From: Flavihumibacter sp. CACIAM 22H1
Lineage (GTDB): Bacteria > Bacteroidota > Bacteroidia > Chitinophagales > Chitinophagaceae
Direction of reading: 5' to 3'
Assembly (NCBI RefSeq): GCF_001601815.1
Contig: NZ_LUKG01000013.1
Location: 30,023 to 74,970, forward strand
Length of the DNA: 44,948 nucleotides
Below the pieces are notes generated by a model. It saw only the letters and a program-made list of their open reading frames with translations. It was not told the origin of the DNA and made no database searches. A program made the translations under genes and the position numbers. Of the stretch, positions 16,165 to 42,171 are shown piece by piece (position 1 is the stretch's first letter; every line of letters starts with the position of its first letter).

Positions 16165-16231
16165 GCTTGTGATTTAGATCAACTTTATTTTAAATGTGAA
16201 ATTGGCCTTAAAAGAACCGGCCAAGGGGCGA

Positions 16232-16239: not shown

Positions 16240-16261
16240 CAAACTGAACGGCTAAAACCGC

Positions 16262-16269: not shown

Positions 16270-16309
16270 TCCGTATCGACCTAGTACTGACCCATCGAAA
16301 TTTCAAATC

Positions 16310-17182: not shown

Positions 17183-17245
17183 TCCTATCCAGCAAACAGG
17201 TGATTTTAGTTTTTACTTTTTCCATTTTACTTTTTACTTTGCAAC

Positions 17246-17506: not shown

Positions 17507-17520
17507 TTTATAATTGTTCC

Positions 17521-18351: not shown

Positions 18352-18381
18352 GTCCGACCTGTTTTAAAATCAACTTCCTGC

Positions 18382-20566: not shown

Positions 20567-20585
20567 GCAACTTATTGAAACTAAC

Positions 20586-21380: not shown

Positions 21381-21381
21381 G

Positions 21382-22398: not shown

Positions 22399-22419
22399 CC
22401 CTGTTAAAAATAATCGCTG

Positions 22420-23395: not shown

Positions 23396-24098
23396 CTTGA
23401 AGTAATTGAATGCAAATCAGCACCCAATGCCATCGTTATTTTAATATCGCGGGTTTCCCAGGTATCAAAAAAAGGCTGCCAGCGACCCATATTGTAGAAC
23501 ATTCCAAACACTTCATTTTCTACATTTTCCGTCCAGATTTCGTCCCTGGTCGGACATTCAACATGCGTCACCCTGCCCGAGGCATTAATGGTGACAACAA
23601 AGGTATGATTCCAATTGGGAATGGTATTGGCTTTATAATACGCCGCACTGAAATAATCTACCAGGTTCTGCGTAGCAAACATGTATACCGGGTCTATTTT
23701 CACCGCATACCAACGCTTGAGTTCTGCCAATTCATTTTGCCCGAACCCTTTTGGTAAATGATCCAGCTCTATCCGGAACGACTGTTCATGCTGTACAAAT
23801 ACACCATTAACAGGTTCATCTTTGTAGTAATAAATAAAATGTTCCAGGCTATCAGTGGGGGTTAAACGAACCAGTACGGTATCGCCTTCATTAAAAAAAA
23901 CTCGCGGCCCTACCAATTTATCATTCCGGTACTGGCACTGTAACAGTACATTTCCTTTTTTGTCAAAAAACAGCCAATCGCCCTGTTTGCGTCCTTGTTT
24001 ATCGATCGCATTCAGTTGAATTCATTCCATTTAATGGTTTTCTGCGCCACCGTAGCCAGTGGAAACAAAAGGACTAAGAACAGAATTCGCCAAATCAT
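23392..24098 (-). pseudogene. Exported protein with TonB-C-like domain, single-base frameshift
   Basis: The track shows only the C-terminal 174 residues. Upstream, ATG 24098 opens a signal peptide (MIWRILFLVLLFPLATVA) that reads KTIKWNEF and then hits a stop. One inserted base near 24,016-24,024 would continue it as QLNAIDKQGRKQGDWLFFD into the tracked frame, giving about 235 residues. The middle resembles YwqK-type antitoxin-like repeats (KQGDWLFFDKKGNVL). The end resembles a TonB C-terminal domain (FVVTINASGRVTHVE, then GRWQPFFDTWE). The gene could be truly broken or the base could be a sequence error. It is coupled to the HIT gene. Confidence 0.65.
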
Positions 24099-24102
24099 GG
24101 CG

Positions 24103-24110
24103 CAAAACTA
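24103..24110 (-). promoter_or_regulatory. -7 promoter box (TAGTTTTG), near-leaderless
   Basis: The minus strand reads TAGTTTTG, a full TAnnTTTG match, only 4 bases before ATG 24098. The transcript would start at or next to the ATG. It lies just downstream of five 11-bp repeats. Confidence 0.55.
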
Positions 24111-24118
24111 GCCGCCCA

Positions 24119-24173
24119 TTGTTACCAAACTGTAACCATACTATTACCGGAACGTTACCAAATTGTTACCTGC
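24119..24173 (-). repeat. Five direct repeats of GTTACC-type core with exact 11-bp period
   Basis: On the plus strand the cores GTTACC, GTAACC, ATTACC, GTTACC and GTTACC begin at 24121, 24132, 24143, 24154 and 24165. The last copy overlaps the rhamnosidase stop codon. The array ends 8 bases from the -7 box of the frameshifted gene, so it covers the -33 region. It resembles PhoB/OmpR-family operators, which also use 11-bp direct repeats. The orientation is opposite to that of E. coli Pho boxes relative to transcription. Confidence 0.65.
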
Positions 24174-26535
24174 CGGGTGGTATTGTATGCAGGATGCGGT
24201 TCTTACCGGCCTTCAGCAACCGGGTTTGCGAACGTCTATGCATTTCATTTACCGGCAATTGCACCTGTACCCTGGTATCGGCGGGTACCTCCACCAGCAA
24301 CTCCAATTGATTGCCTGTTTTTTTCCATTCAACAGTCAGGGGCCCATTTTTTGTACCCACCCCTGCCTTCACCCATTCCAAGCGCCTTGTATCAGGCGCT
24401 ATTAACCAGTCTACCTTCCCTCCTCCTACTACGTCCTTTCCATTGTACCCATGCATTCTTCTGATCCCCGCCAACCAACGGAAGAAAAATTCTGTTACCG
24501 TACCAAACATGGGATGATTATGCGAAAACGTATCATCACTGTATTCCCAGTGCTCCCACAAACTGGTAGCCCCCCGATCCATCATGTGCATCCATCCGGG
24601 AAAGCCTTCTTTTGTAATAATATCATACGCCAGATCCGCCCTTCCATATTGTGCCAGCACTTCCAGTAAAAACCGGGTGCCAAAAATACCTGTACTCAGG
24701 TGACCGTCATTCTTTTCTATAATATCAGCCACCAGGTAGTCAAAGGCTTTTTTCTGTAAGGGTGCGGGAACCAATCCAAAATAAAGGGCATGTGCCTGGG
24801 TAGACTGGGTTCCGATTCCGACTTTGCCTGTACTATCGTTTACAAAACGTTCAATAAATCGCTGGCGAACCTGGTTGGCTTCCTTTATATAAACCATGGC
24901 TTCGTTCTTTCTCCCCAACTCCATGGCAAATTCCGCCAATAAAGAAATCGAATAATAATAGAAGGAGCTGGCACTTACCGACAAATCTTTGGGAGCAATG
25001 GACTCATGATCGCCTATGGTGGTATGTAGTAAATGATCAACCGCTTTGCTTTTTAAAAAATCCACCCATTTTTTCACCTGTGGATACTGGGCCTGCAGCA
25101 GCTCCTTTTTACCATAATACCGATACAATTGCCTCAGCAGTTCCGGGTGTGCGACCCCCCATTCCACGGGGCCCGAGCCGCCTCCATAGCCTTCATCTGC
25201 AATGCCTACAAAGGGCGCCGTTTCAGTAAAACCTCCATCCGGCCGGGCTGCATCTGCAAAATCCAGTACCGTTTTGGTATAAAATGCTTCCATATCAAAT
25301 AACTGAATAAACGATTCAGCGGTAGCAACAATATCTCCTCCATATCCAAGTTTTTCGCGATGTGGACAATCCGATTGTACACCAATGAGGTTACTTAGAA
25401 AGGTTCTTTTAGAGATGGCCAGCAATTCATTAAGCCTTGGGTCAGAGCAACTGAAACTACCAGTTTCCTGAACGGCAGCATGCAAAACAAGCGCCCGGAT
25501 GCCGGCAGTGTCAGGAAATCCAGGGTAACCCTGGATTTCCGCATAACGAAAACCATGGTAGGTGAAAGCCGGCCTAAACAGATCCTCTTCTCCGGAGCAG
25601 ACGAATATATCCTCCTGGTAAGCCGTATCGGGCGCACCCGGCCCACCTGTTCCAGCTGATTTTATTTGCCCGGCTACGCTGGTCATTTTATTCAGGGTTC
25701 TGTCAGAATACAGAAGCTCTCCGTATTGCACTTTTAAAATTGTACCTGCAGGTAACCGGGTTTTGACTTGCAGTACCCCGGTTTGGTTGGTTCCGAAATC
25801 AAGTAACCAGCCCTTGGTTGTTTGCCAGATCGCTTTGGGCGCAATTTCTTGCGCAATAATAACAGAAGGGCTCTCCTGCGGCTGCAGTGTGCCCGCGGGT
25901 GAAACCGCCTTAGTAGCTGGCTGCAGAGGCCTGTTCTGTTTTGCCACGCGCAGGTCGATCCATTCACCCAGGTAAATACTGTTTCTGCGGATATTGCTTT
26001 CTCCCACCTGCCAGGAAGGGTCAGTAGCAATAATTTCCTTGCTGCCGTCTTCCCCGACAAGTTCAAGTTGCGCCAATAGGGCAGGTTCGCCCACCGGTAA
26101 AACATCCTGCAGGTTAAACCGGCCAAATAAACGAAGCGGCAGGGGGTTATACCAACCATTGCCGACAAGTACTTCCAACCTGTTCTCCTTTCGGTTAAGC
26201 AGGCTGGTGATATCATAACTGCTGTAAAAGACCCGGCGTGCGTAGTCTGCTTGCGAAGGCTCCAGTACCCGATTGCCGATTTTTTTTCCGTTCACAGACG
26301 CTTCATAATAGCCTAATGCCGTAATATGAAGGGTAGCTGTACGCAGGGGCTTATTCAGCACAAACTCTTTTACAAACAGCGGTGCCGGATTTTCCTGGTA
26401 AGCCCGTTGATCCTTAAAAAAATGGGTTTGCTGATCACGGATCCAGGATGCCTCCCATTTTACAGGAATATTTTTCTGAGCGGTAGCTGTTATGCAGAAA
26501 ATAGGCAGCACCAGACAGGAAAGAAACAATCGCAT
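24166..26535 (-). CDS. GH78 family alpha-L-rhamnosidase
   Basis: This 789-residue exported enzyme (signal MRLFLSCLVLPIFCITATAQ) should release terminal L-rhamnose from plant or bacterial glycans. The N-terminal beta-domain has YYEASVNGKKIGNRVLEP, typical of GH78. The (alpha/alpha)6 catalytic domain begins around residue 340. SDCPHREKLGYGGD contains the acidic and arginine residues conserved in the family active site. GATSLWEHWE and HNHPMFGTVTEFFFRWLAG follow as expected. No SusC/SusD pair is in this window, so it is not part of a visible polysaccharide utilisation locus. Confidence 0.93.
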   Translation of the reverse strand: MRLFLSCLVLPIFCITATAQKNIPVKWEASWIRDQQTHFFKDQRAYQENPAPLFVKEFVLNKPLRTATLHITALGYYEASVNGKKIGNRVLEPSQADYARRVFYSSYDITSLLNRKENRLEVLVGNGWYNPLPLRLFGRFNLQDVLPVGEPALLAQLELVGEDGSKEIIATDPSWQVGESNIRRNSIYLGEWIDLRVAKQNRPLQPATKAVSPAGTLQPQESPSVIIAQEIAPKAIWQTTKGWLLDFGTNQTGVLQVKTRLPAGTILKVQYGELLYSDRTLNKMTSVAGQIKSAGTGGPGAPDTAYQEDIFVCSGEEDLFRPAFTYHGFRYAEIQGYPGFPDTAGIRALVLHAAVQETGSFSCSDPRLNELLAISKRTFLSNLIGVQSDCPHREKLGYGGDIVATAESFIQLFDMEAFYTKTVLDFADAARPDGGFTETAPFVGIADEGYGGGSGPVEWGVAHPELLRQLYRYYGKKELLQAQYPQVKKWVDFLKSKAVDHLLHTTIGDHESIAPKDLSVSASSFYYYSISLLAEFAMELGRKNEAMVYIKEANQVRQRFIERFVNDSTGKVGIGTQSTQAHALYFGLVPAPLQKKAFDYLVADIIEKNDGHLSTGIFGTRFLLEVLAQYGRADLAYDIITKEGFPGWMHMMDRGATSLWEHWEYSDDTFSHNHPMFGTVTEFFFRWLAGIRRMHGYNGKDVVGGGKVDWLIAPDTRRLEWVKAGVGTKNGPLTVEWKKTGNQLELLVEVPADTRVQVQLPVNEMHRRSQTRLLKAGKNRILHTIPPGR

Positions 26536-26597
26536 ACCGGTAGTTTGCTTGAAATTAACCTGCTTCTCGTAAAAAACTATCCTGTTCTATCGCGTAA

Positions 26598-26632
26598 AAA
26601 AAAACGGCCATCTTAAGGATGGCCGTTTTTTT
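26598..26632 (-). terminator. Rho-independent terminator downstream of greA
   Basis: A 15-bp stem pairs across a 5-base loop (ACGGCCATC with GATGGCCGT plus flanking A/T runs). On the minus strand it lies 16 bases past the greA stop and ends in a T run. The flanking A and T runs make it potentially bidirectional. Confidence 0.88.
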
Positions 26633-26647
26633 ATTGCGCATCATCAC

Positions 26648-27121
26648 TTATGCTGAAATCTCTTCTACTTTAAATTTGAGAATACCAGCCGGGGCTTTTA
26701 CTTCGGCTACCTCACCTACGGTTTTACCCAGCAGGCCCTGCCCAATGGGTGAGGTAACGGAAATTTTACCGGCTTTCAGATCCGCTTCTTTCTCTGAAAC
26801 GATCTGGTAGGTCATGGTTTTTTTGGTATTCAGGTTAGACACCGTTACTCTGGTAAGTATAGATACTTTGCTGGTATCAATTGAATCTGCTTCAAGAATC
26901 CGGGCAATAGCCAGATCGCTCTCCATTTTTTTGATCTTGGCTTCCAGGATTCCCTGCGCCTCTTTAGCCGCATCGTATTCCGCATTCTCACGTAAATCTC
27001 CTTTTTCTCGGGCCTCCGCAATTGCCCTGGAGGCAGCCGGACGTTCCACCGCTTTCATATGGTGGAGCTCCTCTTTCATTTGCTCAAGAGTTTCTTTTGA
27101 CACATAAATTACATCTGCCAT
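26648..27121 (-). CDS. greA: Transcription elongation factor GreA
   Basis: GreA binds the RNA polymerase secondary channel and stimulates cleavage of backtracked transcripts. The 157-residue protein has the N-terminal coiled coil with its acidic tip (AREKGDLRENAEYDAAKEAQG). The C-terminal FKBP-like domain (TYQIVSEKEADLKAGKISVTSPIGQGLLGK) is also normal. It has a strong Shine-Dalgarno sequence and its own terminator, so it is probably transcribed alone. Confidence 0.97.
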   Translation of the reverse strand: MADVIYVSKETLEQMKEELHHMKAVERPAASRAIAEAREKGDLRENAEYDAAKEAQGILEAKIKKMESDLAIARILEADSIDTSKVSILTRVTVSNLNTKKTMTYQIVSEKEADLKAGKISVTSPIGQGLLGKTVGEVAEVKAPAGILKFKVEEISA

Positions 27122-27126
27122 AATTA

Positions 27127-27134
27127 ACCTCCTT
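27127..27134 (-). promoter_or_regulatory. Strong Shine-Dalgarno of greA
   Basis: The minus strand reads AAGGAGGT, with 5 bases to the greA ATG. Near-perfect anti-16S complementarity is unusual in Bacteroidota, where most genes in this part of the window lack such a site. Confidence 0.7.
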
Positions 27135-27145
27135 TGGTTAAAAAG

Positions 27146-27187
27146 TAAAAAAAAAGAACAACGCCTTCAACAGAAGTGAAAGCGTTG
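27146..27187 (-). terminator. Terminator downstream of the 2-hydroxyacid dehydrogenase
   Basis: On the minus strand CAACGC pairs with GCGTTG, extended by TTC/GAA past a mismatch, and is followed by a run of T. It lies about 30 bases after the dehydrogenase stop and separates it from greA. Confidence 0.7.
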
Positions 27188-27217
27188 CACTCAGATAGGC
27201 AAATATAGGGTTTTTAA

Positions 27218-28141
27218 TTAACCAAACAGTTTCTCCACCACTACTTCCGCCATCTTCAAATAAGCTTCGTGGCTGTATCCTGCAATATGCGGCGTAACCA
27301 ATACATTGGGCTGCGCACACAACCATTGAAGCGCCGCTTTTTCTGCTTCTGAATAGGTTGTGAGTTGTTCATTTTCAAGCACATCCAAGCCGGCAGCAAC
27401 TATTTTACCAGTTTCAAGTGCACGGATCACTGCACCTGTATCATGCACTTTTCCGCGGCTGGTATTTAAAAAAACCGGGTTACAGGCTAATTGATCAAAA
27501 AACGCATCATTGGCCATATGATGTGTTTCCTCCGTTAACGGTACATGAAAACTGATCACATTTGAATAACGGGCCACCTGCTCCAAGCTGGCTTCTTTAA
27601 CAAATCCTTTAGCAAATCCAAACCGGTATTTATCATAAGCCAGTACCGTAACCCCAAAAGGTTCCAACAGGCGGGCAAAAGCTCCCCCCGTATGACCAAA
27701 TCCTATGATTCCCACTGTTTTTCCACTGAGTTCTGTACCGCGGTTGGCATCCCTTATCCACTTTCCTTCGCGTACTTCTGCAGCACTGGAACTAAGTTTA
27801 TTCAGGAGCGATAAGAGCATTCCCAGTTCGTGTTCTGCCACGGCATTGCGATTGCCTTCCGGGCTGCTGACGCAGCGGATTCCTTTTTCAGCTGCAAAAC
27901 CAAGGTCTATTAATTCAAGACCGCTGCCTAAGCGCCCCACCCATTTCAAACGGTCCGCTTTTTCCAGAAGCGGGCGATCCAGCTTAATGCGGGTGGTCAG
28001 AATCAGCCCGGTTATATCACCAATAATTTCACCCACCTGCTCATAGGTTATAGCAGGTTGATAAATAACCTCAAAACCCAGTTTGCTTAATTTTTCATTC
28101 AGCCAGGGATGTACACCTGCTGTTATCAATACCTTATCCAT
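27218..28141 (-). CDS. D-2-hydroxyacid dehydrogenase, NAD-dependent
   Basis: This protein of about 307 residues belongs to the D-isomer-specific 2-hydroxyacid dehydrogenases (phosphoglycerate dehydrogenase-like). The Rossmann motif is [20 protein letters not shown] with the acidic residue in LAYDKY that favours NAD. The conserved Arg is in NTSRGKVHD, the Glu in LDVLENEQ and the catalytic His in [10 protein letters not shown]. No ACT domain is present, so it is not the long SerA form. Start taken at ATG 28141, which overlaps the rsmA stop by 8 bases; ATG 28150 is also possible. Confidence 0.9.
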
Positions 28142-28898
28142 TGTTTCCATTCATTTTGAACGTGAGTGCCGCAAACTCTTCCACAGATAACTGTTCAGCT
28201 CTTTTCTGAAAAACAGGATCCAGCAACATTTCAGGTGGAAACAAGGATTTTACAGCGTTGCGAAGTGTTTTACGGCGCTGGTTAAACGCCGTTTTTACCA
28301 GCAGGAAAAACTGTTTGCGACCAGCCATCACCGGTATTGTTTTCCGGGGTTGCAGTGCAATTACCCCGCTCATTACCTTTGGCGGGGGATTAAAGCAACC
28401 CGGTGCTACATCAAACAGGTAGGCTACATCAAAATAGGCCTGTATCAATACACTGATTACCCCATACACTTTGGAACCCGGCGGAGCGGCCACGCGCTGG
28501 GCTACTTCTTTCTGAAACATGCCTACTACTCTTTCCACTTTCCCTTCCCATTCCAACACTTTAAACAAAATCTGGGAAGAGATATTATAGGGGAAATTGC
28601 CAACCAGCGTAAAGGGGTCGTCGAAAGGGCAATCAATATCCAGGAAGCTCCGGTGAATCAGCTTTCCTTTCAACGCCGGGTAGGCCGTTTCGAGGTACTG
28701 AACTTTTTCTTCATCCAGCTCCACCGCCCTGAATGCTACCCCCTGCAGCTCCAACAGGTATTTAGTGAGTGCGCCACCGCCCGGCCCTACTTCCAGCAAG
28801 CGTTCAAAAGGCTGCTGCTGCAAGGCCTCAACGATCTTTCGGCAAATATTCTCATCCCGGAGAAAATGCTGACCCAGTGATTTTTTAAGCGTATACAT
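28134..28898 (-). CDS. rsmA: 16S rRNA dimethyladenosine transferase RsmA (KsgA)
   Basis: RsmA dimethylates two adjacent adenines near the 3' end of 16S rRNA during 30S assembly. The protein starts [18 protein letters not shown], the family N-terminus. The SAM motif is [15 protein letters not shown] and the catalytic NLPY-type motif is [25 protein letters not shown] and [14 protein letters not shown] are the expected C-terminal landmarks. ATG 28898 is preferred to the tracked TTG 28910, because the latter lies inside the probable promoter box at 28908-28915. It is coupled to the dehydrogenase by overlap. Confidence 0.97.
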
Positions 28899-28907
28899 AA
28901 ACTGGCG

Positions 28908-28915
28908 CAAAAATA
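28908..28915 (-). promoter_or_regulatory. -7 promoter box for rsmA (TATTTTTG)
   Basis: The minus strand reads TATTTTTG, a full TAnnTTTG match, 9 bases before ATG 28898, so the 5' leader would be only a few bases. It is one arm of a 14-bp inverted repeat shared with the pdxA side. Confidence 0.55.
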
Positions 28916-28950
28916 CAGTATTGGGCGCGGCCGCTGAATACTGTATTTTT
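28909..28950. repeat. 14-bp perfect inverted repeat between rsmA and pdxA
   Basis: AAAAATACAGTATT and its reverse complement are separated by a 14-base GC-rich spacer. Each arm contains a TATTTTT promoter-like box facing outward. It could be an operator or two mirrored promoters. Confidence 0.6.
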
Positions 28951-28975
28951 ACTGCTTATTTAAGCATAGTACAAA

Positions 28976-30067
28976 ATGTCAACTGAAACTATACGTCCGA
29001 TAATTGGTATAAGCTGTGGTGATCTGAACGGCATCGGCCTGGAGCTAATCATTAAAACCGTAGGCAACAGCAAATTGCTGGACCTCTGTACGCCCATTGT
29101 GTTTGCCTCTAATAAGGCCATCAATTTTTACCGTAAATCAACCCCCGACAGCAATTTCAACTTCCAGCAAATCAAGGATTTCAGCCGTATCAACCCGAAA
29201 CAGGTGAATATCTACAATTGCTGGGAAGAAGAAGTAGCCATAACCCCCGGGCAATTAACTGCCGAAGGCGGAAAATATGCGGTACTTTCTCTGACTACCG
29301 CCACAGAAGCCTTGCTGGCCGGCCATATTCATGGGCTGGTAACAGCTCCGATCCATAAGAAAAATACCCAGAGCGATGCATTTCCTTATACCGGTCATAC
29401 GCCTTACCTGAAACAGGCTTTCGGCGCTAAAGAAGTGGTTATGATGATGGTAGCCAGTAACATGCGGGTAGCTTTGCTGACAGAACATGTACCTGTTCAG
29501 GAAATAGGCCCTTTTGTTACAAAAGCAGCCATTCTTTCCAAGTTGAAACTGATCGAATCCAGCCTGAAACAGGATTTCGGAATAGACCGGCCCAAAATTG
29601 CGGTATTAGGATTAAACCCACATGCCGGTGATGAAGGTCTTATTGGTTCAGAAGAAGAAGCCATTATTAAACCTGCCATCAAGGAATTCAAACAACAAAC
29701 AGGCGCAATTGTACAGGGTCCCTTTTCAGCGGATGCTTTTTTTGCCAGAGGATACCATGAACGTTTCGATGCAGTACTGGCCATGTACCATGACCAGGGG
29801 CTGATTCCCTTTAAATCACTTTCGCATGGCGAAGGGGTAAACTTTACCGCCGGCTTATCGGGTGTTCGTACCTCGCCCGACCATGGAACGGCCTTTGATA
29901 TTGCCGGTAAAAACCGGGGCGATGAAAGTTCCTTTATCAGCGCCCTGTTCACCTGTGTAGACATAATCAGGCAGCGGTCTTTTTATCGCGAAAACAGGGC
30001 AAACCCTATGAAAAAACTCACCAACCGCCTGTTAGCCAATGCGGTTGATGAGAAAATTGAAGAATAA
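28976..30067 (+). CDS. pdxA: 4-hydroxythreonine-4-phosphate dehydrogenase PdxA
   Basis: PdxA oxidises 4-phosphohydroxy-L-threonine in the DXP-dependent route to pyridoxal 5'-phosphate. The 363-residue protein opens with PIIGISCGDLNGIGLELIIK. The metal-binding histidines are in FPYTGHTPYL, LLTEHVPVQ and AMYHDQGLIPFK, and the phosphate-binding segment VRTSPDHGTAFDIAG is intact. Length is slightly above the E. coli enzyme, which is usual in Bacteroidota. It converges on the T9SS protein gene with 6 bases between the stops and is divergent from rsmA. Confidence 0.97.
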   Translation: MSTETIRPIIGISCGDLNGIGLELIIKTVGNSKLLDLCTPIVFASNKAINFYRKSTPDSNFNFQQIKDFSRINPKQVNIYNCWEEEVAITPGQLTAEGGKYAVLSLTTATEALLAGHIHGLVTAPIHKKNTQSDAFPYTGHTPYLKQAFGAKEVVMMMVASNMRVALLTEHVPVQEIGPFVTKAAILSKLKLIESSLKQDFGIDRPKIAVLGLNPHAGDEGLIGSEEEAIIKPAIKEFKQQTGAIVQGPFSADAFFARGYHERFDAVLAMYHDQGLIPFKSLSHGEGVNFTAGLSGVRTSPDHGTAFDIAGKNRGDESSFISALFTCVDIIRQRSFYRENRANPMKKLTNRLLANAVDEKIEE

Positions 30068-30073
30068 ACCGGT

Positions 30074-33000
30074 TTACCGGAGTACCACTTTATGGGTGAT
30101 CACCTCCTGGTTATTGGAAACCATACGCAACAGGTAAACACCTCTGGCATATTTTCCCAACCCGGAAATCTGGATGGTATTATTTCCTTTCTGCAATTGT
30201 TGAGATTGCTGATATACCAGGCGACCCCGATCATCCATTAATTGGCAATCCAACCATTGTTTTTCTTTTGCAGCAATAATAATTTGGAGATAAGACTGTG
30301 CCGGGTTAGGCATTACCGACAACTGCTCCACTACGGAAAGTTTTACCAGCACCACATCACTGATTACCGATTTACCTTCCCGGTTAATAGCTTTGATCCG
30401 GTATTGAACACCTGTTGAATGGCCAGGTTTGGTATCATGGAAGCTGGTAGCGTTATAAACCGTACCAATCACTACAAAATTACCGTTACCGTCTTTCCGC
30501 AGTACTTCATAATAACTTACCGGTTCTGTTGTACTTATTTCCCAGTTCAGGTGCACACCATCCGGTTGCTGGAAGGCGGTTACTTTTACGAAACGGGTTG
30601 ACAGGATATAGAGGTACACTCTCCAGTCGCGTTCGGATGATTCGTTGGAATGTCGCTGCACCATGGTTTTAGATCCCGGGCTTGCATCCCCCGTCATAGA
30701 ACCTGCAGTGCCCATGTAGGCAGACGTGCCTTTAGCAGAACTGTTATCCAGGTCAAATGTATTATCCAATCCATCGTCATCTGTATCCAGTCCACTTAGT
30801 GTAATATCATCATCAGCTTTACTGTTCATGTTAAAATCATTGGCTTCAATGATATCGCTAACGCCGTCGCCATCAGTATCACTGTCTCTATAATCCGGTA
30901 TGCCATCCAGGTCTTCATCATTGGGTGTAATTCCGTTTCCGCCATAACCGTTGAACCCATCATACGCATTATCGATTCCATCATTATCCGAGTCCAATCC
31001 GGAAGGTAATTGATAGCTGTTGGTAGCAAGTCCCTCTACATTATCCGGAACACCATCATCGTCCGAATCAATATCGAGGTAATCAGGGTGTGTTCTGCCA
31101 TCCGTATTCGGATAAACAAAATGACGGACAGTACCTGCATCCAGCATGCCATTGAAATCAATATCTGCATAACCAGCTTCGCGCAGATCGGTTATTCCAT
31201 CCCCGTCACTGTCCAGGTCATAGGGGTTGGGGCGTCGGTCGTTGTCTTTATTGCGGAAGGGATAACTGTCTGCTCTTCCATCGTTGTTGGTATCGGCACC
31301 TGTTCTCAGGATCATAGTTCCGTTATCAATACGGCCATCGTTATTGGCATCTATACCTCCAGCTTCGATAACGTCGTATATACCATCATTATCACTATCC
31401 AGATCAAACATATTGGGTATACCATCCCCATCCAGATCGGGCAGTCCTAAGCCTACGCCAGAACCGGCGGCTCCTGTAGACGAAGCATCTACGTTCTGGG
31501 AAAGACCATCTCCATCCGGATCGGTAAAATTATCGATACGACCATCTCCATTCGCATCAACGCCACCTGCTTCTACCACGTCAGCAATCCCATCATTATC
31601 ACTGTCCAGGTCAAACGAGTTTAATGTTCCATCAAGGTCAAAATCGAAACGATCATCAATTCCATCATTATTAACATCCACGAAACCGGGGGTATCAGCA
31701 TCGCGATAATCAAGCGTACCATCCATGTCTTGATCCAGGTCTGCATCCAGGCCATTGTTTTCAACAAGATCCGGAATACCGTCATCATCATCATCAATAT
31801 CACAGCCCAAATTAACCCGGTAGCTTACGCAGGTGGTCATATTACAATCACCTTCAATCCGAACATAATAGGTTCTGCTGGTGGAAGGATTTACCGTTAA
31901 AGTAGGGCCATATCCTAATGGAATATTAGTACCACAACCGTTTGCATACCAAACATAGCGTGCATTTGTTCCGAAGCTGCCACCATAGGCTGTTAAGGTT
32001 ACACCACTACCCGGACAAACAGTTGTTTTATTGGCCCTTATACCGGTAGGCGAAACAGTGCTGGGTGACTTTAATGGCAGATAGAAACCGGGTGAAGCAT
32101 AACGACATCCAGGATTATTAATGTTTCCGCCCGATGCTACCAATACCCTGTAATAGCGCTGATTGGTAGCACTCATAGAGGCAATGGTATAGGTTGAATT
32201 GGTGGCTCCGGAAAGATTGGTCCAGTTCAGACTATCGGTACTCGATTGCCATTGATACTGAACGGTACCATCAATAATTGTAGGATCACTTAAAGTAGCG
32301 GAGAAGGTTGCCTGTCCGCCCACGCAACCCGCACTTACTGCGGTAGTATTTACAACGGGTTCCGCATCACAAAGTCCAAATTCAATATCATCAATGGCCA
32401 GGTCATTTCCACAACCACCTTCTCCCTGGTTTATCACTTCCAGGATAATGGAAGAATATCCACTGGGTAATACAAACCGGATCCCGTGTCGTTCCCAGGC
32501 ACTATTCGTTATTTCTGGGGTACTCAGGTAGGTAAGTACCAGGCCGGTTACTGCATCTCTGGCACGGAATAATAAACGGGGTGATTTGAAGCCACCAACA
32601 GCTGCACAAAAGCTTCGCTGGTTGCTGTTACTGATATTGGCCACCCACACATTCAGGGAATATTTGAGGTTGGAACAAAGATTATTGACCGTAGTACTGA
32701 ATAATACGCTCTGTTGCACATCCGCATTAACTACCAGCATCTGGCCATTGGGATTGCCTGTATGATCCGGCATGGAATTCCAGTAGGTACTGTTTCCATT
32801 TGCGGGATTATTGGTTATCACATAGGAGTTGGTTGGTAATGGGTTGGAGGTAGAACCCGTATATTCTGTAGTGGTACCAAGGGGCATCAGGATAGAGGAA
32901 CCCGTACCACTGCCGAAATTTTGCGAATACAATACATTATTTATAGCCGGACAAGGAGGAGATTCGCCTGCCACTACTACCACAAATGGAGTAGGCACTG

Positions 33001-34351
33001 ATTCGCCTGCATCATCTGGTTTGCCGTTCAGGTTAAGATCAGGATGAGCGCCATCGGTTGAAACATCCCTAAGATTAACCCCAAAGCCGGAGGCTGTACT
33101 ACCAAATCCGGTTCCGGTAACCGTTGCCGAGTTATTATAAATTTTTCCTCTTTCAATATTGCGTAACCGCACTGAAATCCGAATCGTAAAATTATTTTCG
33201 TTAACCGGGAAGTTTTTTAGCGTTTGAGCGTTTGCCAGTAAACGGGTATTGGTGGTTCCGTTGTAGGAACCGTTCAATGTAACTCCGGCGGGATTAGATA
33301 CCAGGCTCGCACTGGCACTAACAACATTTGAGGCAAAATTTATGTTTGAAAGCGTATCGAACACCTGTAAGTTAGATATAGGATAATTACCGAAATTCCG
33401 GACATAGAGATCGTATACAACATCGTATTCTCCGGGTGTACCCGTAGGGGTTAGGGACACCAGCTTTTTGGCGGATCCTATTCCGGATGTAATACTGGTA
33501 TTATCAAATGAGCTAAAGGTGGAACTGGCACCCAGGTTAAACCGGTCGCCGGTTAACATATCCAATCGGCTGTGCATACATAATGCGGGTGACGACCTTC
33601 TGAAAGAGCCCACAAATTGCCCACCTGCATAGGCCAGTCCTACCAGGTTTACATTGGCACCCGGTAATGGAATTGTATCAATATAAGTTGCTCTGATGGG
33701 GGCTGTACCGTAATCGCGGTAGTTCATCGTCATCAACTTATTATCAAAGGCAAAATAAAACTGACCCGTAGGAGTAATGGCGAAATCTCCATTCTGCGTA
33801 TAAATCTTAACACCGGTTGGCATGGTAACTGGTACCGCTGCACCAATATTACCTGTGGTAAAATCAATACGCTGCAAAGTAAGATTATAGTTCAGGGGAG
33901 ATCCGGTGGCAGGATTCATATTCACCATCCAGGCATAGCCATCTGAATCAAATGCTGCTGTTAAAATACTATTGAATACCCGAATTGGTGCCAGGTTATT
34001 ATTCGGACAGGTACCGGGTGCCCATCTCCACACATAGGTGCTGGTTCCCGACCACCTGAAATAATAAATCATATTATCCTTTGGGTTAAAATCAACCAGG
34101 GCCCCGGAGGAAGAATAACCGGGTGAAGCGAGGCTGGGTGTACAGTCAAAGGAATTGATTTTGCTTAAAATATTGGTCTGGTCCTTAAACTCCATATAAG
34201 CCATACCAAGGGTACCGCTAGCGCAATTGGAGCGGCCAATACCAATTACAATGGAACGGACAGCCGGATCCTGGGCGCGCAGGGTACTTAAAAACATCAC
34301 CAACAGCAGGCTAAGAAAGCTGGTTTTTAGGAAGGGGGTGGTCATACTCAA
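30074..34351 (-). CDS. Large T9SS-exported protein with thrombospondin type-3-like calcium repeats
   Basis: This 1,425-residue surface or secreted protein starts with a signal peptide (FLSLLLVMFLSTLRAQ). An N-terminal region of about 270 residues looks beta-propeller-like. A DUF11-like segment (YDVVYDLYVRNFGNYPISN) and a jelly-roll-like region after CPAINNVLYSQNFGSG follow. Ig-like modules come next (VQYQWQSSTDSLNWTNLSG). Residues ~850-1205 hold about a dozen DxDxDGxxD calcium-binding repeats such as DLDSDNDGIADVVE. A fibronectin-III-like domain precedes a type A T9SS sorting domain from about residue 1345 (VMPNPAQSYLQI to VITHKVVLR). A role in adhesion or matrix formation is plausible; no enzyme domain is visible. 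Confidence 0.9.
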   Translation of the reverse strand: MSMTTPFLKTSFLSLLLVMFLSTLRAQDPAVRSIVIGIGRSNCASGTLGMAYMEFKDQTNILSKINSFDCTPSLASPGYSSSGALVDFNPKDNMIYYFRWSGTSTYVWRWAPGTCPNNNLAPIRVFNSILTAAFDSDGYAWMVNMNPATGSPLNYNLTLQRIDFTTGNIGAAVPVTMPTGVKIYTQNGDFAITPTGQFYFAFDNKLMTMNYRDYGTAPIRATYIDTIPLPGANVNLVGLAYAGGQFVGSFRRSSPALCMHSRLDMLTGDRFNLGASSTFSSFDNTSITSGIGSAKKLVSLTPTGTPGEYDVVYDLYVRNFGNYPISNLQVFDTLSNINFASNVVSASASLVSNPAGVTLNGSYNGTTNTRLLANAQTLKNFPVNENNFTIRISVRLRNIERGKIYNNSATVTGTGFGSTASGFGVNLRDVSTDGAHPDLNLNGKPDDAGESVPTPFVVVVAGESPPCPAINNVLYSQNFGSGTGSSILMPLGTTTEYTGSTSNPLPTNSYVITNNPANGNSTYWNSMPDHTGNPNGQMLVVNADVQQSVLFSTTVNNLCSNLKYSLNVWVANISNSNQRSFCAAVGGFKSPRLLFRARDAVTGLVLTYLSTPEITNSAWERHGIRFVLPSGYSSIILEVINQGEGGCGNDLAIDDIEFGLCDAEPVVNTTAVSAGCVGGQATFSATLSDPTIIDGTVQYQWQSSTDSLNWTNLSGATNSTYTIASMSATNQRYYRVLVASGGNINNPGCRYASPGFYLPLKSPSTVSPTGIRANKTTVCPGSGVTLTAYGGSFGTNARYVWYANGCGTNIPLGYGPTLTVNPSTSRTYYVRIEGDCNMTTCVSYRVNLGCDIDDDDDGIPDLVENNGLDADLDQDMDGTLDYRDADTPGFVDVNNDGIDDRFDFDLDGTLNSFDLDSDNDGIADVVEAGGVDANGDGRIDNFTDPDGDGLSQNVDASSTGAAGSGVGLGLPDLDGDGIPNMFDLDSDNDGIYDVIEAGGIDANNDGRIDNGTMILRTGADTNNDGRADSYPFRNKDNDRRPNPYDLDSDGDGITDLREAGYADIDFNGMLDAGTVRHFVYPNTDGRTHPDYLDIDSDDDGVPDNVEGLATNSYQLPSGLDSDNDGIDNAYDGFNGYGGNGITPNDEDLDGIPDYRDSDTDGDGVSDIIEANDFNMNSKADDDITLSGLDTDDDGLDNTFDLDNSSAKGTSAYMGTAGSMTGDASPGSKTMVQRHSNESSERDWRVYLYILSTRFVKVTAFQQPDGVHLNWEISTTEPVSYYEVLRKDGNGNFVVIGTVYNATSFHDTKPGHSTGVQYRIKAINREGKSVISDVVLVKLSVVEQLSVMPNPAQSYLQIIIAAKEKQWLDCQLMDDRGRLVYQQSQQLQKGNNTIQISGLGKYARGVYLLRMVSNNQEVITHKVVLR

Positions 34352-34436
34352 GGGTTGGATACCTTTAAAACGACCAAATATTAATTATATTTTTTCTACA
34401 AATAAAATAATGGAAAACCCCTAAAATTGAGGGAAA

Positions 34437-35126
34437 CTACTTAAATAAGGCAGGAGATAAGCCCTTATTTATGCTATAGGTTTTGTAAACCAGGGAAACC
34501 CGGCCCTTGCCATCCCCGGACGCCTGGGGGGCTTTGGTAGATTTACCACCCTCATATTCCATGGTTACCCCTTTCGGCAGCTTGAAAGTACTGGTATTGA
34601 ACACAAAAAGAATTTTATCCGGTAACCCCCATTGGGCAAACCGGTTGTATTCCATGTTGGATTCGTAGGTGCCATTTTCTTTCGTGGTGGTCGTAGCTTT
34701 CCAAACCAGGGCGGAACTTTCCTCAACCAGCAAGGTGGTTAATACGACATCGCTGTTCTCGGCAATGGGCAATAGTTTAATAATCGCCAGTTTACGGCCA
34801 TTCACCGAGGTGTACCCACCCGGTACAGAGGTAAACTCTTTCCCTGAAATAAGGGAGTTCAGGCTTACATTCATGCCACCTTTAGGTAAAATGGAGATAC
34901 CATCGGGTTTAATTATTTTAAATTGATCGGGTTGGCGGAAGTAAACTTTCACCTTTGAGTCGGGAACTTTCATAAAACTCACCTCTACCGAAAGAGTGGC
35001 ATCCCCGGTATAGTCCTTCACCGATTCGAGCTTTTTTTTAACCGCCTGAAGCAATTGCGCTGCGTCCTGCGCCCTCAGAGATAGGGTAAATAACAGCGTA
35101 CAGAAGAGAAAGCCAAACTTTTTCAT
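34437..35126 (-). CDS. LolA-like outer-membrane lipoprotein carrier family protein
   Basis: Starting at ATG 35126 gives 229 residues with a signal peptide (KKFGFLFCTLLFTLSLRAQ). The tracked start at 35246 lies well inside the permease gene and is rejected. The body is a beta-rich half-barrel pattern (LLQAVKKKLESVKDYTGDATLSVEV, YFRQPDQFKIIKPDG) typical of LolA/LolB-like proteins that bind lipid or lipoprotein. It begins 1 base after the permease stop and is probably co-transcribed with the ABC genes, so it may be the periplasmic partner of that transporter. Confidence 0.75.
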   Translation of the reverse strand: MKKFGFLFCTLLFTLSLRAQDAAQLLQAVKKKLESVKDYTGDATLSVEVSFMKVPDSKVKVYFRQPDQFKIIKPDGISILPKGGMNVSLNSLISGKEFTSVPGGYTSVNGRKLAIIKLLPIAENSDVVLTTLLVEESSALVWKATTTTKENGTYESNMEYNRFAQWGLPDKILFVFNTSTFKLPKGVTMEYEGGKSTKAPQASGDGKGRVSLVYKTYSINKGLSPALFK

Positions 35127-35127
35127 A

Positions 35128-35967
35128 TTAGGATAAAATATCTTTTTTGCGGAATACAAAAATAGTAGCCAGTAGTAGGCCAACAATATGCAGCACCAGG
35201 ATACCGGCCGATTGAAGTACAGGCTGCCAGGCAACCGGCGCATCAAAAAAACCTTTCCAGCCGATCATGTGGGTGGTAAACAAAAAGGGCTTGATAGTAT
35301 TAAAAATGGGAATATCCATGGTGCTGAGAATGGTACAAACGATAATTACACTCATAGTGGTAACAATGGGTCCGATAGAGTTTTCCGCAAATACAGAAAA
35401 AAAGAAAGCGAGTGCAGGTACCGTTGTCATAGCAATTGCCGCAAATCCAAATGCGGCGAAATAGCGCCACAAGACGTCGGCTTTTTCCAGTATAACTACT
35501 TCGGTACTTTTTAAAATCATGAGGTCACCAGTTCCGAAAATCCAAACAGACACCAAGAGCGCCAGAAAGGCCATCCAGATCAATAATAATATGGTGTAAA
35601 TAACAGAAGCAGTAAACTTAGCCAGTAAGAGGCGGGTTCGGCTAACCGGTTTGGTGATCAATAGGCGAAGGGTACCCATATTGGCTTCTCCGGCAATCTG
35701 ATCACCAGCTACAAGGGCAATTAATAAGGGTACATGAATAAGAAGGGTCTGCAGCACGATAAAACAAATCAGGTAACCATTCAGGACATTCCCCTGTATA
35801 TCAAAACTCTGGGTTAGAGATTGCATACCAAATGCCATATAATTTGAGCCATCGGCATAAAAGGCCAGCAATATTAAAGCTACAATTGCACCAATAGCCG
35901 CAAAACTGATATAGGTACGCGAACGCTTGAATATCTTAAACAGTTCAATTTGTAAAAGTGGCCACAT
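35128..35967 (-). CDS. ABC transporter permease (ABC-2 type)
   Basis: This 279-residue integral membrane protein has about six helices. GDQIAGEANMGTLRLLITKPVSRTRLLLAKF is the cytoplasmic loop characteristic of ABC-2 type permeases of the NatB/YhaP/NosY kind. Its start overlaps the 3' end of the ATPase gene by 23 bases, as expected for an ATPase-permease pair. The substrate is unknown; this class often handles antibiotics, copper-enzyme maturation or lipids. Confidence 0.9.
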   Translation of the reverse strand: MWPLLQIELFKIFKRSRTYISFAAIGAIVALILLAFYADGSNYMAFGMQSLTQSFDIQGNVLNGYLICFIVLQTLLIHVPLLIALVAGDQIAGEANMGTLRLLITKPVSRTRLLLAKFTASVIYTILLLIWMAFLALLVSVWIFGTGDLMILKSTEVVILEKADVLWRYFAAFGFAAIAMTTVPALAFFFSVFAENSIGPIVTTMSVIIVCTILSTMDIPIFNTIKPFLFTTHMIGWKGFFDAPVAWQPVLQSAGILVLHIVGLLLATIFVFRKKDILS

Positions 35968-36142
35968 GTTGATTGCCCGAGGTTAAGGATAAAAAATATG
36001 CTTCCAGTGAATTGACCGAGCGGATGGATTGCAGATCAATGTCCATTTGCACCAGGTAACGCGTTAGTAAGGGAACCTGGTCTGGCGGCAGGGGCACCAC
36101 CAATTCCTGCTTCCATTCTTCTACCGGCAGGTTCCAGGGAGC
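35945..36142 (-). CDS. ABC transporter ATP-binding protein, C-terminal fragment (cut at junction)
   Basis: Only about the last 65 residues remain, from PWNLPVEEWKQEL to the stop. They match the C-terminal tail of ABC-2 ATPases, where SLEAYFLSLT is the usual ending. Walker A, signature and Walker B motifs are all missing because the sequence changes to planctomycete DNA at about 36,140. The tracked ORF to 36,241 reads through the junction into foreign sequence in a meaningless frame. Confidence 0.8.
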   Translation of the reverse strand, partial: APWNLPVEEWKQELVVPLPPDQVPLLTRYLVQMDIDLQSIRSVNSLEAYFLSLTSGNQHVATFTN

Positions 36143-36150
36143 CCGGGTCA
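36130..36150. other. Junction between Bacteroidota and Planctomycetota sequence
   Basis: Left of this point codons spell the tail of an ABC ATPase on the minus strand. Right of it they spell the tail of a GT2 glycosyltransferase on the plus strand (VTQVPVRHHPRTAGKSKY). Base composition changes abruptly from moderate to high GC at the same point. There is no transposase, integrase, tRNA or repeat at the join. Confidence 0.9.
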
Positions 36151-36545
36151 CGCAGGTTCCCGTCCGGCACCACCCGCGGACGGCCGGGAAATCGAAGTAC
36201 ACCATCTTCCGCACCGTGCGGGTGATCCTCGACCTGCTCACGGTGAAGTTCCTCGCGAGCTACCAGACCCGACCAATGCACCTCTTCGGCCTCGTCGGCC
36301 TGGGGTTGATGTTCGCCGGGACGGTCGCCCTCGCGGCCGCGGTCGCCATGAAGTACACGAGCGGCCCGGGGATGACCTCGAATCCGCTGACGCTGCTCGG
36401 CCTGCTCGCCGAGGTGTGCGGTGTGCAGTTCCTGTCGCTCGGCCTAATGGGCGAAGTGATGACGCGGGTCTATTCGAGAGCCAGGGAAAACGGCCGTACC
36501 GCGTCCGCGAGATTGCCGAAGGCGTACGCGATCGCGGCGTGCTGA
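36138..36545 (+). CDS. GT2 family glycosyltransferase, C-terminal fragment (cut at junction)
   Basis: Reading back from the tracked ATG 36216 in frame, the protein begins near 36,138 as GARVTQVPVRHHPRTAGKSKYTIFRTVR. The VPVRHHPRxxGKSKY segment is characteristic of polyprenyl-phosphate glycosyltransferases of the DPM1/GtrB kind. Two C-terminal transmembrane helices follow (HLFGLVGLGLMFAGTVAL and LLAEVCGVQFLSLGLMGEV). The whole catalytic GT-A domain is missing. GC-rich codon use matches the rest of the right part. ATG 36216 is an internal Met, not the real start. Confidence 0.8.
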   Translation, partial: GARVTQVPVRHHPRTAGKSKYTIFRTVRVILDLLTVKFLASYQTRPMHLFGLVGLGLMFAGTVALAAAVAMKYTSGPGMTSNPLTLLGLLAEVCGVQFLSLGLMGEVMTRVYSRARENGRTASARLPKAYAIAAC

Positions 36546-36610: not shown

Positions 36611-38152
36611 TTACGCGCCGGCGGGGTCCTTGCCGCCGATCCACGGGCCTTCGAGCTTCTGGTAAGCCGGCGGTTCGAGCAGGCTGCCCTTGTCGCCGCC
36701 GGTCCAGCCGATGACCTGGTTCGGCTTACCGCGTTCCTTCGACCGCTTTTCCCAGGCGGCGGCCCAGGTCGCGTCGGCTTCCGTCGGCTTGCGGGCTTGC
36801 TTGTCCCAGAACAGCGCCTTGCCGTTGCGGTAACTGAGCACGCCCATGTTCACGGTGCTGAACGCGGCGGCTCCGAGTTCTGGCGTGCAGAGCGTGTCCT
36901 GCTTGCCGGCGGCGACGTGTTCGAGGAAGTCTTCCCACAGGGCGTAGGTCGCGTTCCCCTTCTTCGGGTTTTCGTAGGTGAAGACCGGGGCGTCGTTCTT
37001 TTCGCCCGGCTTGACAGGCCCGCCGGCGATCTTCTGGCCGTAGACCTCGAAGCCCTTCATGTAGTCGCCGCCGCCGGTGAACTTGATCGTGGCCAGGTGG
37101 CCGCGGATCATTTCGCCGAGCTGGGTGTCGTTGGCCATCGTCGCGGAGACGATGAACTGGCAACCTTCGTCGTAGTCGGCAACCACGGTGGCGGTGTCCG
37201 GCACGTCGCGGCCGTCGTACTCGATGTAGATGCCGCCGGCCCCGACGACGCGCCGCGGATAGCGGATCCCCATCGCGGCGATGAGGTGGGTCGTCTGGTG
37301 GACGAACAGGTCAGTGAACATGCCGCCGCCGAACGGCCAGTAGCAGCGCCACTGGGCCCAAACGGCGCGGTCGAACGGCATGTCGGCTTCCGCCGGCCCG
37401 ATCTTCTCGCCGTTGACTTCCTGCTCGTTGCCGAGCCAGGTCTTCCAGTCGATGGTCTTCGGCGACATTTCCTTGGTCAGCGGGTAGTAGCGCCACTGGC
37501 CGACGCTGCTGTTGCGGAAGTAGCTGGTCTGGCCCTGGAGCACGTGGCCGATGTTGCCGGCCGTGATGTACTTGTTCGCCTCGGACCAGGTCGGATCGGC
37601 CATGCTCTGCACGCCGACGGTCATCACCTTACCCGATTCCTTCCACGCATCGACGACGGCCTGCGATTCGGCGATGGTCCGGGTCATCGGCTTTTCGCAG
37701 TAGACGTGCTTGCCCTTCTTGAGGGCGTCGATCGTCATTTTCGCGTGCCAGTGGTCCGGTGTGGCGATGGTGACGACGTCGACGTCGCCGTTGTCGAGGA
37801 TGACGCGGTAATCCTTGGTGACGCGCTTCTTATCGTCCTTGTCGAGCCCGCAACGTTCGGCCGACGGGTACAGGCCACGCCCCTTGATGAGGTTCGGGAC
37901 GACCTGGCCGTCCCAGACGTCGCAGACCGCGAACGGGACGACGTTCTTGTTTTCCTTCTGCATCTGCAGCACGACGTCGATGTGCTGCTGACAGCGGCCG
38001 CCGACGCCGAGGAAGGCGACGTTGAGTTTGCCGTTGGCTCCGAGCACCTTGGCGTAGGACTTGGCCGGCAGGGCCATCGCGGCACCTGCGACGCCCGCGG
38101 CCGCGGACGTTTGCAGGAACCCGCGCCGGGTCGGCTGCGTGGAATTCGACAT
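36611..38152 (-). CDS. Gfo/Idh/MocA family oxidoreductase, Tat-exported
   Basis: This 513-residue protein starts with a twin-arginine signal (TRRGFLQTSAAAGVAGAAMA), so it is folded before export. The NAD(P)-binding Rossmann domain begins at LNVAFLGVGGRCQQH. IATPDHWHAKM and YCEKPMTRT carry the conserved lysine of the family. The C-terminal GFO/IDH/MocA domain follows (FPFGGGMFTDLFVHQ-type stretch). Exported Gfo/Idh/MocA proteins are very numerous in Planctomycetota and probably act on sugars or cyclitols, often with a tightly bound cofactor. GGAG lies 7 bases before the ATG. It is followed by a strong terminator. Confidence 0.93.
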   Translation of the reverse strand: MSNSTQPTRRGFLQTSAAAGVAGAAMALPAKSYAKVLGANGKLNVAFLGVGGRCQQHIDVVLQMQKENKNVVPFAVCDVWDGQVVPNLIKGRGLYPSAERCGLDKDDKKRVTKDYRVILDNGDVDVVTIATPDHWHAKMTIDALKKGKHVYCEKPMTRTIAESQAVVDAWKESGKVMTVGVQSMADPTWSEANKYITAGNIGHVLQGQTSYFRNSSVGQWRYYPLTKEMSPKTIDWKTWLGNEQEVNGEKIGPAEADMPFDRAVWAQWRCYWPFGGGMFTDLFVHQTTHLIAAMGIRYPRRVVGAGGIYIEYDGRDVPDTATVVADYDEGCQFIVSATMANDTQLGEMIRGHLATIKFTGGGDYMKGFEVYGQKIAGGPVKPGEKNDAPVFTYENPKKGNATYALWEDFLEHVAAGKQDTLCTPELGAAAFSTVNMGVLSYRNGKALFWDKQARKPTEADATWAAAWEKRSKERGKPNQVIGWTGGDKGSLLEPPAYQKLEGPWIGGKDPAGA

Positions 38153-38257: not shown

Positions 38258-38998
38258 TCACTTCTTCTTTTGTTCCAGCAACCAGGTGTAGAGTTCATCG
38301 GTGCCGTAGGCGTTGTCCCAGGAGTTGTGGGCGACGCCGGGGTATTCGGTGTACTTCGGTTTGCCGCCGGCCTTTTCGATTGCATTGATCATGTCGCGGG
38401 ACAGGTCGACCTTCACGGCCGCGTCCTTGTCGCCGTGGAAATTCCAGATCGGCAGATCCTTGAGTTTCTCGGCGTCGGCGACGTTGCCGCCGCCGCAAAC
38501 GGGGGCGATTGCGGCCCACTTCGTGGGGTTGGCTGCCGCCTGGTTCCAGGTGCCGAACCCGCCCATCGACAGGCCGGTCAGGTACACGCGGGCCGGGTCG
38601 GTCTTGTACTCCTTCGTCGTGGCTTCGAGCATCGCCAGGGCCCGGTCGCCGTCGGGCTTGCCGGCGAACCAGCGCTGCACCACGGGCGTCTTCGTGTGCT
38701 CCGCCTGCGGAATCACCACGATGAACGGGAAGGTCTTCTCGCGTTTCTGAATCGCCGGCCCGATGCCGACTTGCACCGGCTTCTTGCTGCCGCCCTTGGT
38801 CTCGCCGGCACCGTGCAGGAACAGGATGATCGGGACTTCCTTCGTGCCGTCGTAGCTGTGCGGCACGAACACGACGTAAGGCGATTCGGTGCCGTCGGCA
38901 TTCTTGAACGTCTTGTCGACGAATCCCGTTTTCGTGTCGGCGGCCGACGCGGTGCCGGCAAAAACGACGAAGCAGGCGAGGAACAGCGGACGGAACAT
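38258..38998 (-). CDS. Exported alpha/beta hydrolase (esterase/PHB-depolymerase-like)
   Basis: Starting at ATG 38998 gives 246 residues with a signal peptide (MFRPLFLACFVVFAGTASAA). The tracked start at 39184 adds an Arg-rich leader with no coding character and is rejected. The nucleophile elbow is GLSMGGFG with Ser144. LFLHGAGE forms the oxyanion region, HGDKDAAV supplies the Asp and VAHNSWD the His, so the triad is complete. This layout fits the phospholipase/carboxylesterase and prolyl-oligopeptidase-like group common in planctomycetes. Substrate unknown. The gene ends next to the 29-bp inverted repeat. Confidence 0.88.
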   Translation of the reverse strand: MFRPLFLACFVVFAGTASAADTKTGFVDKTFKNADGTESPYVVFVPHSYDGTKEVPIILFLHGAGETKGGSKKPVQVGIGPAIQKREKTFPFIVVIPQAEHTKTPVVQRWFAGKPDGDRALAMLEATTKEYKTDPARVYLTGLSMGGFGTWNQAAANPTKWAAIAPVCGGGNVADAEKLKDLPIWNFHGDKDAAVKVDLSRDMINAIEKAGGKPKYTEYPGVAHNSWDNAYGTDELYTWLLEQKKK

Positions 38999-39211
38999 GG
39001 AGAGGCTCCGGTGGCAGGCGTGTGAAGGTAAAGTAACAAATCGCTCGGCGAATCGCCAACGATTACCGGCCGTCGGCCTCGCAATCTGATTTTCAGATGG
39101 CAAGGTTTTCCGCGTCGACCCGAAAGCCCGGCGAGCCCATTCGCCTTTTGGACTTTTCGCGGCCGTCCGTAGAATTTCCGCCATCGACTCGAACGTTTCG
39201 CGGAGATGGCG

Positions 39212-39867: not shown

Positions 39868-42116
39868 ATGCCCATTCGCCCCCGCCTCGGTGTCACCCGC
39901 CTCGAAGACCGCACGACGCCCGTCGTATCCGCATTCGAAATCGCACCGATCGTCGGTTCCGGAGTCGGATTCGACGGCGTCGTCAACTTCGGCGAAAACC
40001 TCAACGCACTCGATTCCACCGGCGTCGTGCTGACCGACGCCCGCTACGTCCTCACGGCGGCGCACTGCGTCGATTCCAACGGCGACAAGATCGCGGATGC
40101 GGAGAACTACTTCGTCCGCTTTGCGTTCACGAGCGGGCCGGTGGTTCTGACGGTGCCGCGGGCGGCCATCACCATCGAGCCGCGCTGGCAGGGAAGCAAC
40201 CGGATCGGCGAGGGGGGCGACATCGCCCTTATGCGGTTACCCGCGATCGCTCCCGGCGGTACGAGCATCGGCTTTGCCCCGTACGCTGTGACCGACGAAC
40301 TCGGCAAAACCGTCACCTTCTACGGTTTCGGATTCGCCGGCACCGGCACGACCGGCGAGGCGAGCGGCAACGCGAACGGAAACGCCGAGGTGCAGCGGCT
40401 CGCGATTTCGGGAGCCGGCAATCTCACGCTCGGCTTCAACGGCCAAAGCACCACCATTGCCGCGAACATCACGGCCTCAGCCTTGCAGGCGCAACTTCAG
40501 GCATTCACCGGCCTGACCACGGTCAACGTGTTTACGGTCGATTCGCCCGGTAATCCGAACAACGGTGCCTTCGAACTCGTGTTCGAGAACGTCGATACCG
40601 CCCTGTTCGGCGGACTGAACGTGCCGCAGGTCACGCTGACGCCGCAGGGCGGATTCGTGGGTACCGCCGTGGCCACGACCCTGCAGGACGGCAACTCCGG
40701 AGGCGTGCGACACGTCGGCACCGCGGTCGTGAACCAGTTCGGGCAGTCTGGTGAAACCGACATCTTCGGAGCCGGCTTTCCCTCGGTGGCCGGCGCAAGC
40801 GTGCTCGGGGCCGGCGATTCCGGCGGGCCCGCGTTCATCGACGGCAAAATCGCCGGCATCGCCTCCTACGGCACCGACGAATCCCGATTCGGCGACAGCA
40901 CCTTCTGGGCCCGCGTCTCGGTGCTGCTGCCGACGTTCCTGAATCCGCTGCTCGCCCAGAAGGCGGCCGTCGTCCTCGACATGACGACGCAACCGATCGG
41001 AAACGACGGCACGCCCGATTCGGTCCGCGTGTTCCAAGAGGACTACCAGATCGTCGTTGAGGTCAACGGCGTGCGGTACCTCACGGTGCCTGTCAGTACC
41101 GTGTCCGGCATCACCGTCCGGGGTTCGGCCGATGGAACCAGCGTGAATGCCGATGGGGCCTACCCGTTCGCGGTGACCGCCACCGACGCGACCTTCTCGC
41201 GCACGAATGCCCACAACATCGCCGTGGGAGCGCCCCCGGCGGCGGGCCGCGGGTGCAGGTGATCGACAGTACCAACGGCACCGAACTCGCCAGCTTCTTC
41301 GCCTTCGAGTCGACGTACACCGGCGGCGTCAACGTCGCCCGCGGCGACCTCACCGGCGACGCCATCCCCGATCTGATTGTGACGGCCCGCGCCGGCGGCG
41401 GACCGCGAGTGGTGGTGCTCGACGGCAAGACCGGAGCCGAGGTCCGCAGTTTCTTCGCCTTCGAGGAATCGTTTACCGGCGGCGTGAACGCGGCCGTCGG
41501 CGACCTCAACGGCGACGGTATCGCGGACATCATCCTGACGCCGGGCGTCGGCGGCTCGCCGCGGGTGCGAGCGTTCGACGGGGCGAGTGGCGCGGAACTG
41601 CTCAGTTTCTTCGCCTACGACGGCAGTTTCCGCGGTGGGGCGACCATCGCCGTCGGCGACGTCAACGGCGACGGCATTGCGGATTTGGTCACGGCACCGG
41701 GTGCCGGCGGCGGCCCGAACGTGCGTATCTTCGACGGCAAGACCGCGACCGAGCTGCGGAGCTTCTTCGCCTTCGACCCGAACTTCCGCGGGGGAATTAC
41801 GGCCGCCGTCGGAGACGTCACCGGCGACGGCTTTGCCGAAATCTTTGTCGGCGCGGGTGCCGGGGGAAGCCCGCTGGTGAACTCCTACAACGGGCAGACC
41901 GGCTCGCTCATCAACTCCTTCAACGCCTACGATTCCGGGTTCAACGGCGGCGTCGCCGTCGGCTTCAGCCCGGACGGCAACGGCGACCCCCGCCTCGTCG
42001 TGGCTCCGCTGACGAAGCCCGGCGCAATCAAGTCGTATCGCTTCGACGCCGGGAACATCCTGATCAACAACGCGTCGCAAATCGGCTTCGCCGACGTCGG
42101 CGCCAGCATCGGCTGA
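39868..42116 (+). pseudogene. Trypsin-like serine protease with FG-GAP/VCBS repeats, single-base frameshift
   Basis: Two tracked ORFs are one gene: the protease half (true start ATG 39868; the tracked start at 39097 is too early) and the repeat half ending at 42,116. A missing C in the C5 run at 41,233-41,237 breaks the frame. Adding one C restores VGAPPGGGPRVQVID and a protein of about 749 residues. The N-terminus has the planctomycete TRLEDRTTP motif. The trypsin triad is His66 (LTAAHC), Asp118 (GGDIALM) and Ser318 (GAGDSGGP). The C-terminal part has about five repeats of ~47 residues (GDLNGDGIADIIL) that should form a beta-propeller. Confidence 0.8.
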
Positions 42117-42171
42117 GGAGCGTCCAGCGGCTAATCCGCGTTCCGATTAGTGCACGCAATCGCTTCGTTTT

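Follow-up and report, generated by a model that had tools for sequence, protein, structure and literature searches.

Background

The authors of GUNC describe misassembly into chimeric contigs as a known, relatively rare error of metagenome-assembled genomes (MAGs), beside mis-binning (PMC8201837), and a comparison of marine SAGs with MAGs reported potential chimerism in about 11% of MAGs under the GUNC defaults (PMC11247762). The contig described here is a case of this ordinary class of MAG misassembly. As in the chimeras that GUNC flags (Orakov et al. 2021, PMC8201837), two lineages lie on one contig, composition and gene content change abruptly, a contig end is involved, and marker-based contamination is low; nothing of substance sets the present case apart, in which the join could be narrowed to about 5 bases and it is known which native block is missing.

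The other described system to be considered is the horizontally acquired genomic island, which likewise has a composition unlike that of the host genome. Here, however, host and donor genes are truncated at one point, the genes of a native block are missing, and no second boundary was found. Instead of being enclosed by host sequence on both sides, the foreign DNA reaches the contig end.

Sequence data

The window, i.e. the whole stretch of DNA that was analysed, is 44,948 bases long and corresponds to bases 30023-74970 of contig C13 (74970 bases) in the genome G000, a Bacteroidota assembly of 169 contigs and 4.87 Mb with a completeness of 97.3% and a contamination of 1.06%. The right end of the window (44948) is the terminus of C13, and the anomalous part is the terminal 8.8 kb of the contig. 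Genes of the native block are named below by their length in the congener G014 (p362, p212, p213 and p202), and TonB denotes a TonB-type receptor. The features are listed in Table 1.

Table 1. Features of the window (positions counted from its first base)
Feature	Position	Strand	Remarks
Bacteroidota part, the genome's own sequence	1..36139	.	Collinear with congener G014
LolA-like protein, in conserved block	34437..35246	-	82% identity to G014 gene
ABC-2 type permease, intact	35128..35967	-	PF12730; 92% identity to G014
ABC ATPase, C-terminal remnant from residue ~238 of 310	35945..36139	-	Open frame and homology stop at the join
Join, CAGGG, fits both parents	36135..36139	.	Overlap inferred from relatives' codons
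GT2 glycosyltransferase, C-terminal remnant	36135..36545	+	71% identity to full-length Gemmataceae GT2 genes
Gfo/Idh/MocA oxidoreductase with Tat signal	36611..38152	-	PF01408; best relatives 74-75% identity, titles almost all planctomycete
Dienelactone hydrolase / esterase	38258..39184	-	PF01738; paired with the oxidoreductase in 37 fetched loci
Trypsin-like protease, then repetitive C-terminal region in another frame	39879..42170	+	PF00089
DUF7133 / cytochrome c protein, N-terminus cut by contig end	42423..44921	-	PF23500 from profile position 135; PF00034

Results

Two lineages with one abrupt switch

Over the first 36 kb, the GC content calculated per kb lies between 0.40 and 0.49; at the join, where the first-pass annotation had described a change, it rises from 0.43-0.45 immediately on the left to 0.64-0.68 on the right. 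With a two-segment GC model, lnL improves by about 626 units, and the optimum lies at 36070-36078, less than 70 bases from the join. The tetranucleotide comparison of the two sides, proposed as a check in that annotation, shows that the affinity flips from the congeners to Gemmataceae: eight 4.4-kb pieces of the left part give correlations of 0.79-0.93 with four congener loci and of -0.19 to 0.00 with Gemmataceae, and for the two halves of the right part the values are 0.92-0.93 against Gemmataceae and -0.18 to -0.23 against the congeners. The window thus combines two lineages, with one abrupt change between them, as defines an inter-phylum chimeric contig. The gene families follow the same division, from Bacteroidota to Planctomycetota, as had been claimed: the left part is collinear with congeners, and the right part has planctomycete gene order as well as planctomycete composition.

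On the left, positions 1-33733 match an uninterrupted series of genes on C2 of G014, every one of them in a single frame and mostly with 60-97% protein identity, and the LolA-like protein, the permease and the ATPase extend this shared gene order up to the join. In the genus set of 15 genomes, which includes the query, 12 carry the permease. The ATPase, which has 310 amino acids in G014 and is whole in all seven congeners inspected, is here reduced to its last ~70 residues, in agreement with the reported loss of the 5' part of a minus-strand ABC ATPase.

On the right, the loss of the 5' part of a plus-strand GT2 gene is equally evident, in that the fragment corresponds to the C-terminal ~134 amino acids, the last third of the gene. 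A GT2 match was obtained in 21 of 21 planctomycete genomes tested, where the best match per genome lies in open frames of about 290-420 codons. The pairing of the oxidoreductase with the hydrolase is typical of planctomycetes. Two genome sets, one of 102 from the order of Gemmata sp. and one of 398 drawn from the class, contained no near-identical donor; in them, the best DNA identity to the right part is at most 81% and is confined to short pieces, and the best long matches reach 69-79%.

Some smaller features of the right part may be recorded here. A strong hairpin lies between the oxidoreductase and the esterase at 38185-38255, where the inverted repeat gcgagccgggagcgtaagcgaccggag ... ctccggtcgcttacgctcccggctcgc was read by eye. 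In the interval 39097-42376, the trypsin-domain protease is preceded by a region with a different GC-phase pattern (39261-39980), and part of what is translated in the open reading frames listed at 39097 and 41207 is in the wrong frame.

The join

The first-pass annotation had placed the junction at 36130-36150, and the two homology limits confirm this position and narrow it to the five bases CAGGG. Read leftward, the homology to the ATPase (P W N L ...) ends at 36139; read rightward, the first position with homology to GT2 (Q G A R V T Q V P V R H H P R) is 36135. The Bacteroidota reading of the overlap, ...CCC TGG (P W), is conserved in each of the four congeners compared, and the planctomycete reading, CAG GG(N) (Q G), is found in seven of the nine homologues whose codons were read. 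Both genes that are cut at this point are intact in the relatives of the respective parents, the ATPase in 7/7 congeners and GT2 in 21/21 planctomycetes.

The absence of a mobile element at the join had also been remarked on, and the searches bear it out: the window as a whole is free of tRNA genes, repeats that touch the join reach at most 12 bases, and no Pfam match to an integrase or other mobility family was obtained among the genes tested. An island would be expected to carry an integrase, a tRNA, direct repeats or an insertion sequence at its boundary, and the tRNA, Pfam and repeat searches gave none of these. The right part runs to the contig end, so that the far side of the foreign DNA lies outside the contig. 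Insertion by a mobile element, which was considered as a separate candidate, was rejected for lack of a tRNA, of a repeat and of a second boundary.

The missing native block

Synteny is the strongest evidence for the chimera. The gene order atpH-p362-p212-TonB-p213-p202-ATPase-permease-LolA is kept in all seven congeners examined, although the small genes of the block are weakly conserved in the more distant ones. Because a DNA search of the bin with the 4.3-kb upstream block of G014, which gave no match, is uninformative at genus-level divergence, we used protein searches of the bin. These found no ortholog of TonB, p213, p202 or p212 in the assembly, and the N-terminal part of the ATPase is absent from the whole assembly, where the best other ATPase shows 38% identity. 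The genes atpH and p362 are on another contig, C51 (33822 bases), whose last base lies within p362 (residue 305 of 362). By arithmetic, residue 305 of p362 and residue 238 of the ATPase are about 5.8 kb apart in G014, and native sequence of this length, between the end of C51 and the ATPase of C13, is missing from the bin. In view of the missing genes, the ending of C51 within p362 and the spacing in G014, in the true order of the genome C51 is very probably followed by about 5.8 kb that was left unassembled and then by C13. The native continuation of C13 thus corresponds to another contig end across an assembly gap, as expected of a chimeric contig, and it is to the C13 edge of this gap that the planctomycete DNA is joined.

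A real inter-phylum transfer, in which planctomycete DNA of at least 8.8 kb took the place of, or was inserted into, the ~5.8 kb that separates p362 from the ABC ATPase through illegitimate, microhomology-mediated recombination, would likewise leave the missing genes absent from the whole assembly, and a microhomology of ~5 nt is possible in such events. We nevertheless regard it as highly improbable, since both boundary genes are broken, GT2 being cut as well as the ATPase, the composition is fully planctomycete with no amelioration, and the integrase match (among the genes tested), tRNA and repeat at the join are lacking; moreover, two contigs end where the other boundary would lie, which hides it from view, and the ancestral order is kept in seven congeners. 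The particular form in which a very recent replacement of ~5.8 kb through ~5 nt of microhomology broke the ABC transporter operon has an equally slight chance of being correct.

Origin of the chimera

The contig has two parents, a gene of each is broken at one and the same point, and a native block is missing where contigs end. We conclude that the contig is almost certainly an inter-phylum chimera produced during library preparation or assembly, i.e. an assembly artefact with no biological feature behind it. A chimera predicts that the broken ATPase is whole in relatives, that its lost part and its neighbours are gone from the bin rather than relocated, that the true continuation is another contig end, and that the foreign DNA keeps the gene order and composition of its own phylum; the seven intact congener genes, the missing block, the end of C51 in p362 and the planctomycete character of the right part agree with these predictions and strengthen what the first-pass annotation had called a probable chimeric contig.

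According to this explanation, positions 1-36139 are real Bacteroidota genome, and at the edge of the unrecovered ~5.8 kb the contig was continued with 8.8 kb from an unrelated planctomycete of Gemmataceae-like character, which presumably belonged to the same community. The bridge was likely a chimeric read or library molecule, accepted perhaps at low coverage; such a molecule is favoured because an overlap of ~5 bases is too short for an ordinary k-mer overlap. As most of the contig is Bacteroidota sequence, the binner would then have left all of it in the Bacteroidota bin.

The same artefact could have arisen by another route, namely an error of a graph-based assembler through a repeat of k-mer length common to both organisms, with no chimeric molecule involved. 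Chimeric contigs in metagenome assembly are known to arise from misassembly (PMC8201837), but the protein-level boundaries, taken from relatives, leave a shared stretch of only ~5-8 bases, far below the usual k, and we consider this route unlikely. We infer that the ~5-nt overlap counts against the simplest assembler mechanism and requires a chimeric molecule.

Sequence quality and contamination

Two apparent one-base frameshifts are present in the right part, both at short homopolymers. One, in the GT2 fragment near 36474, was seen by comparison with homologues, where the alignment and the frames place TATTCGAG against Y-F-E; the other, in the protease gene near 41230 at a CCCCC run, was called from a frame change and the GC phase, which switches at ~41180. 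None was seen among the matched genes of the left part. This imbalance (2 in 8.8 kb versus 0 in 36 kb) has a chance of about 4% if both are placed at random, and is weakly suggestive of a lower depth on the right.

The 8.8-kb piece is not part of a wholesale planctomycete contamination of the bin. This possibility was set aside because PF07596, searched with two planctomycete genomes and one congener as controls, has no copy in the G000 bin, whereas the two planctomycete controls contain 141 and 123 copies.

Implications for the use of the assembly

The significance of the locus is that of a quality warning only. Analyses of gene neighbourhood, transfer or defence islands would go astray if they took the two sides to be adjacent, and the Bacteroidota genome should be trimmed of the 8.8 kb (C13 from ~66160 onwards); the marker-based contamination value of the bin (1.06%) fails to reveal the chimera.

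Two database entries met during the comparisons deserve mention. The locus L026 (JAIXLE010000008.1), titled 'Bacteroidales bacterium UW1SPNA076', is a high-GC locus of Gemmataceae type, and the taxon in its title is probably wrong. It was considered as a second chimera and rejected, since the whole genome (G047) falls among the order of Gemmata sp. The title 'Candidatus Kuenenia stuttgartiensis' of the locus L072 may likewise be wrong.
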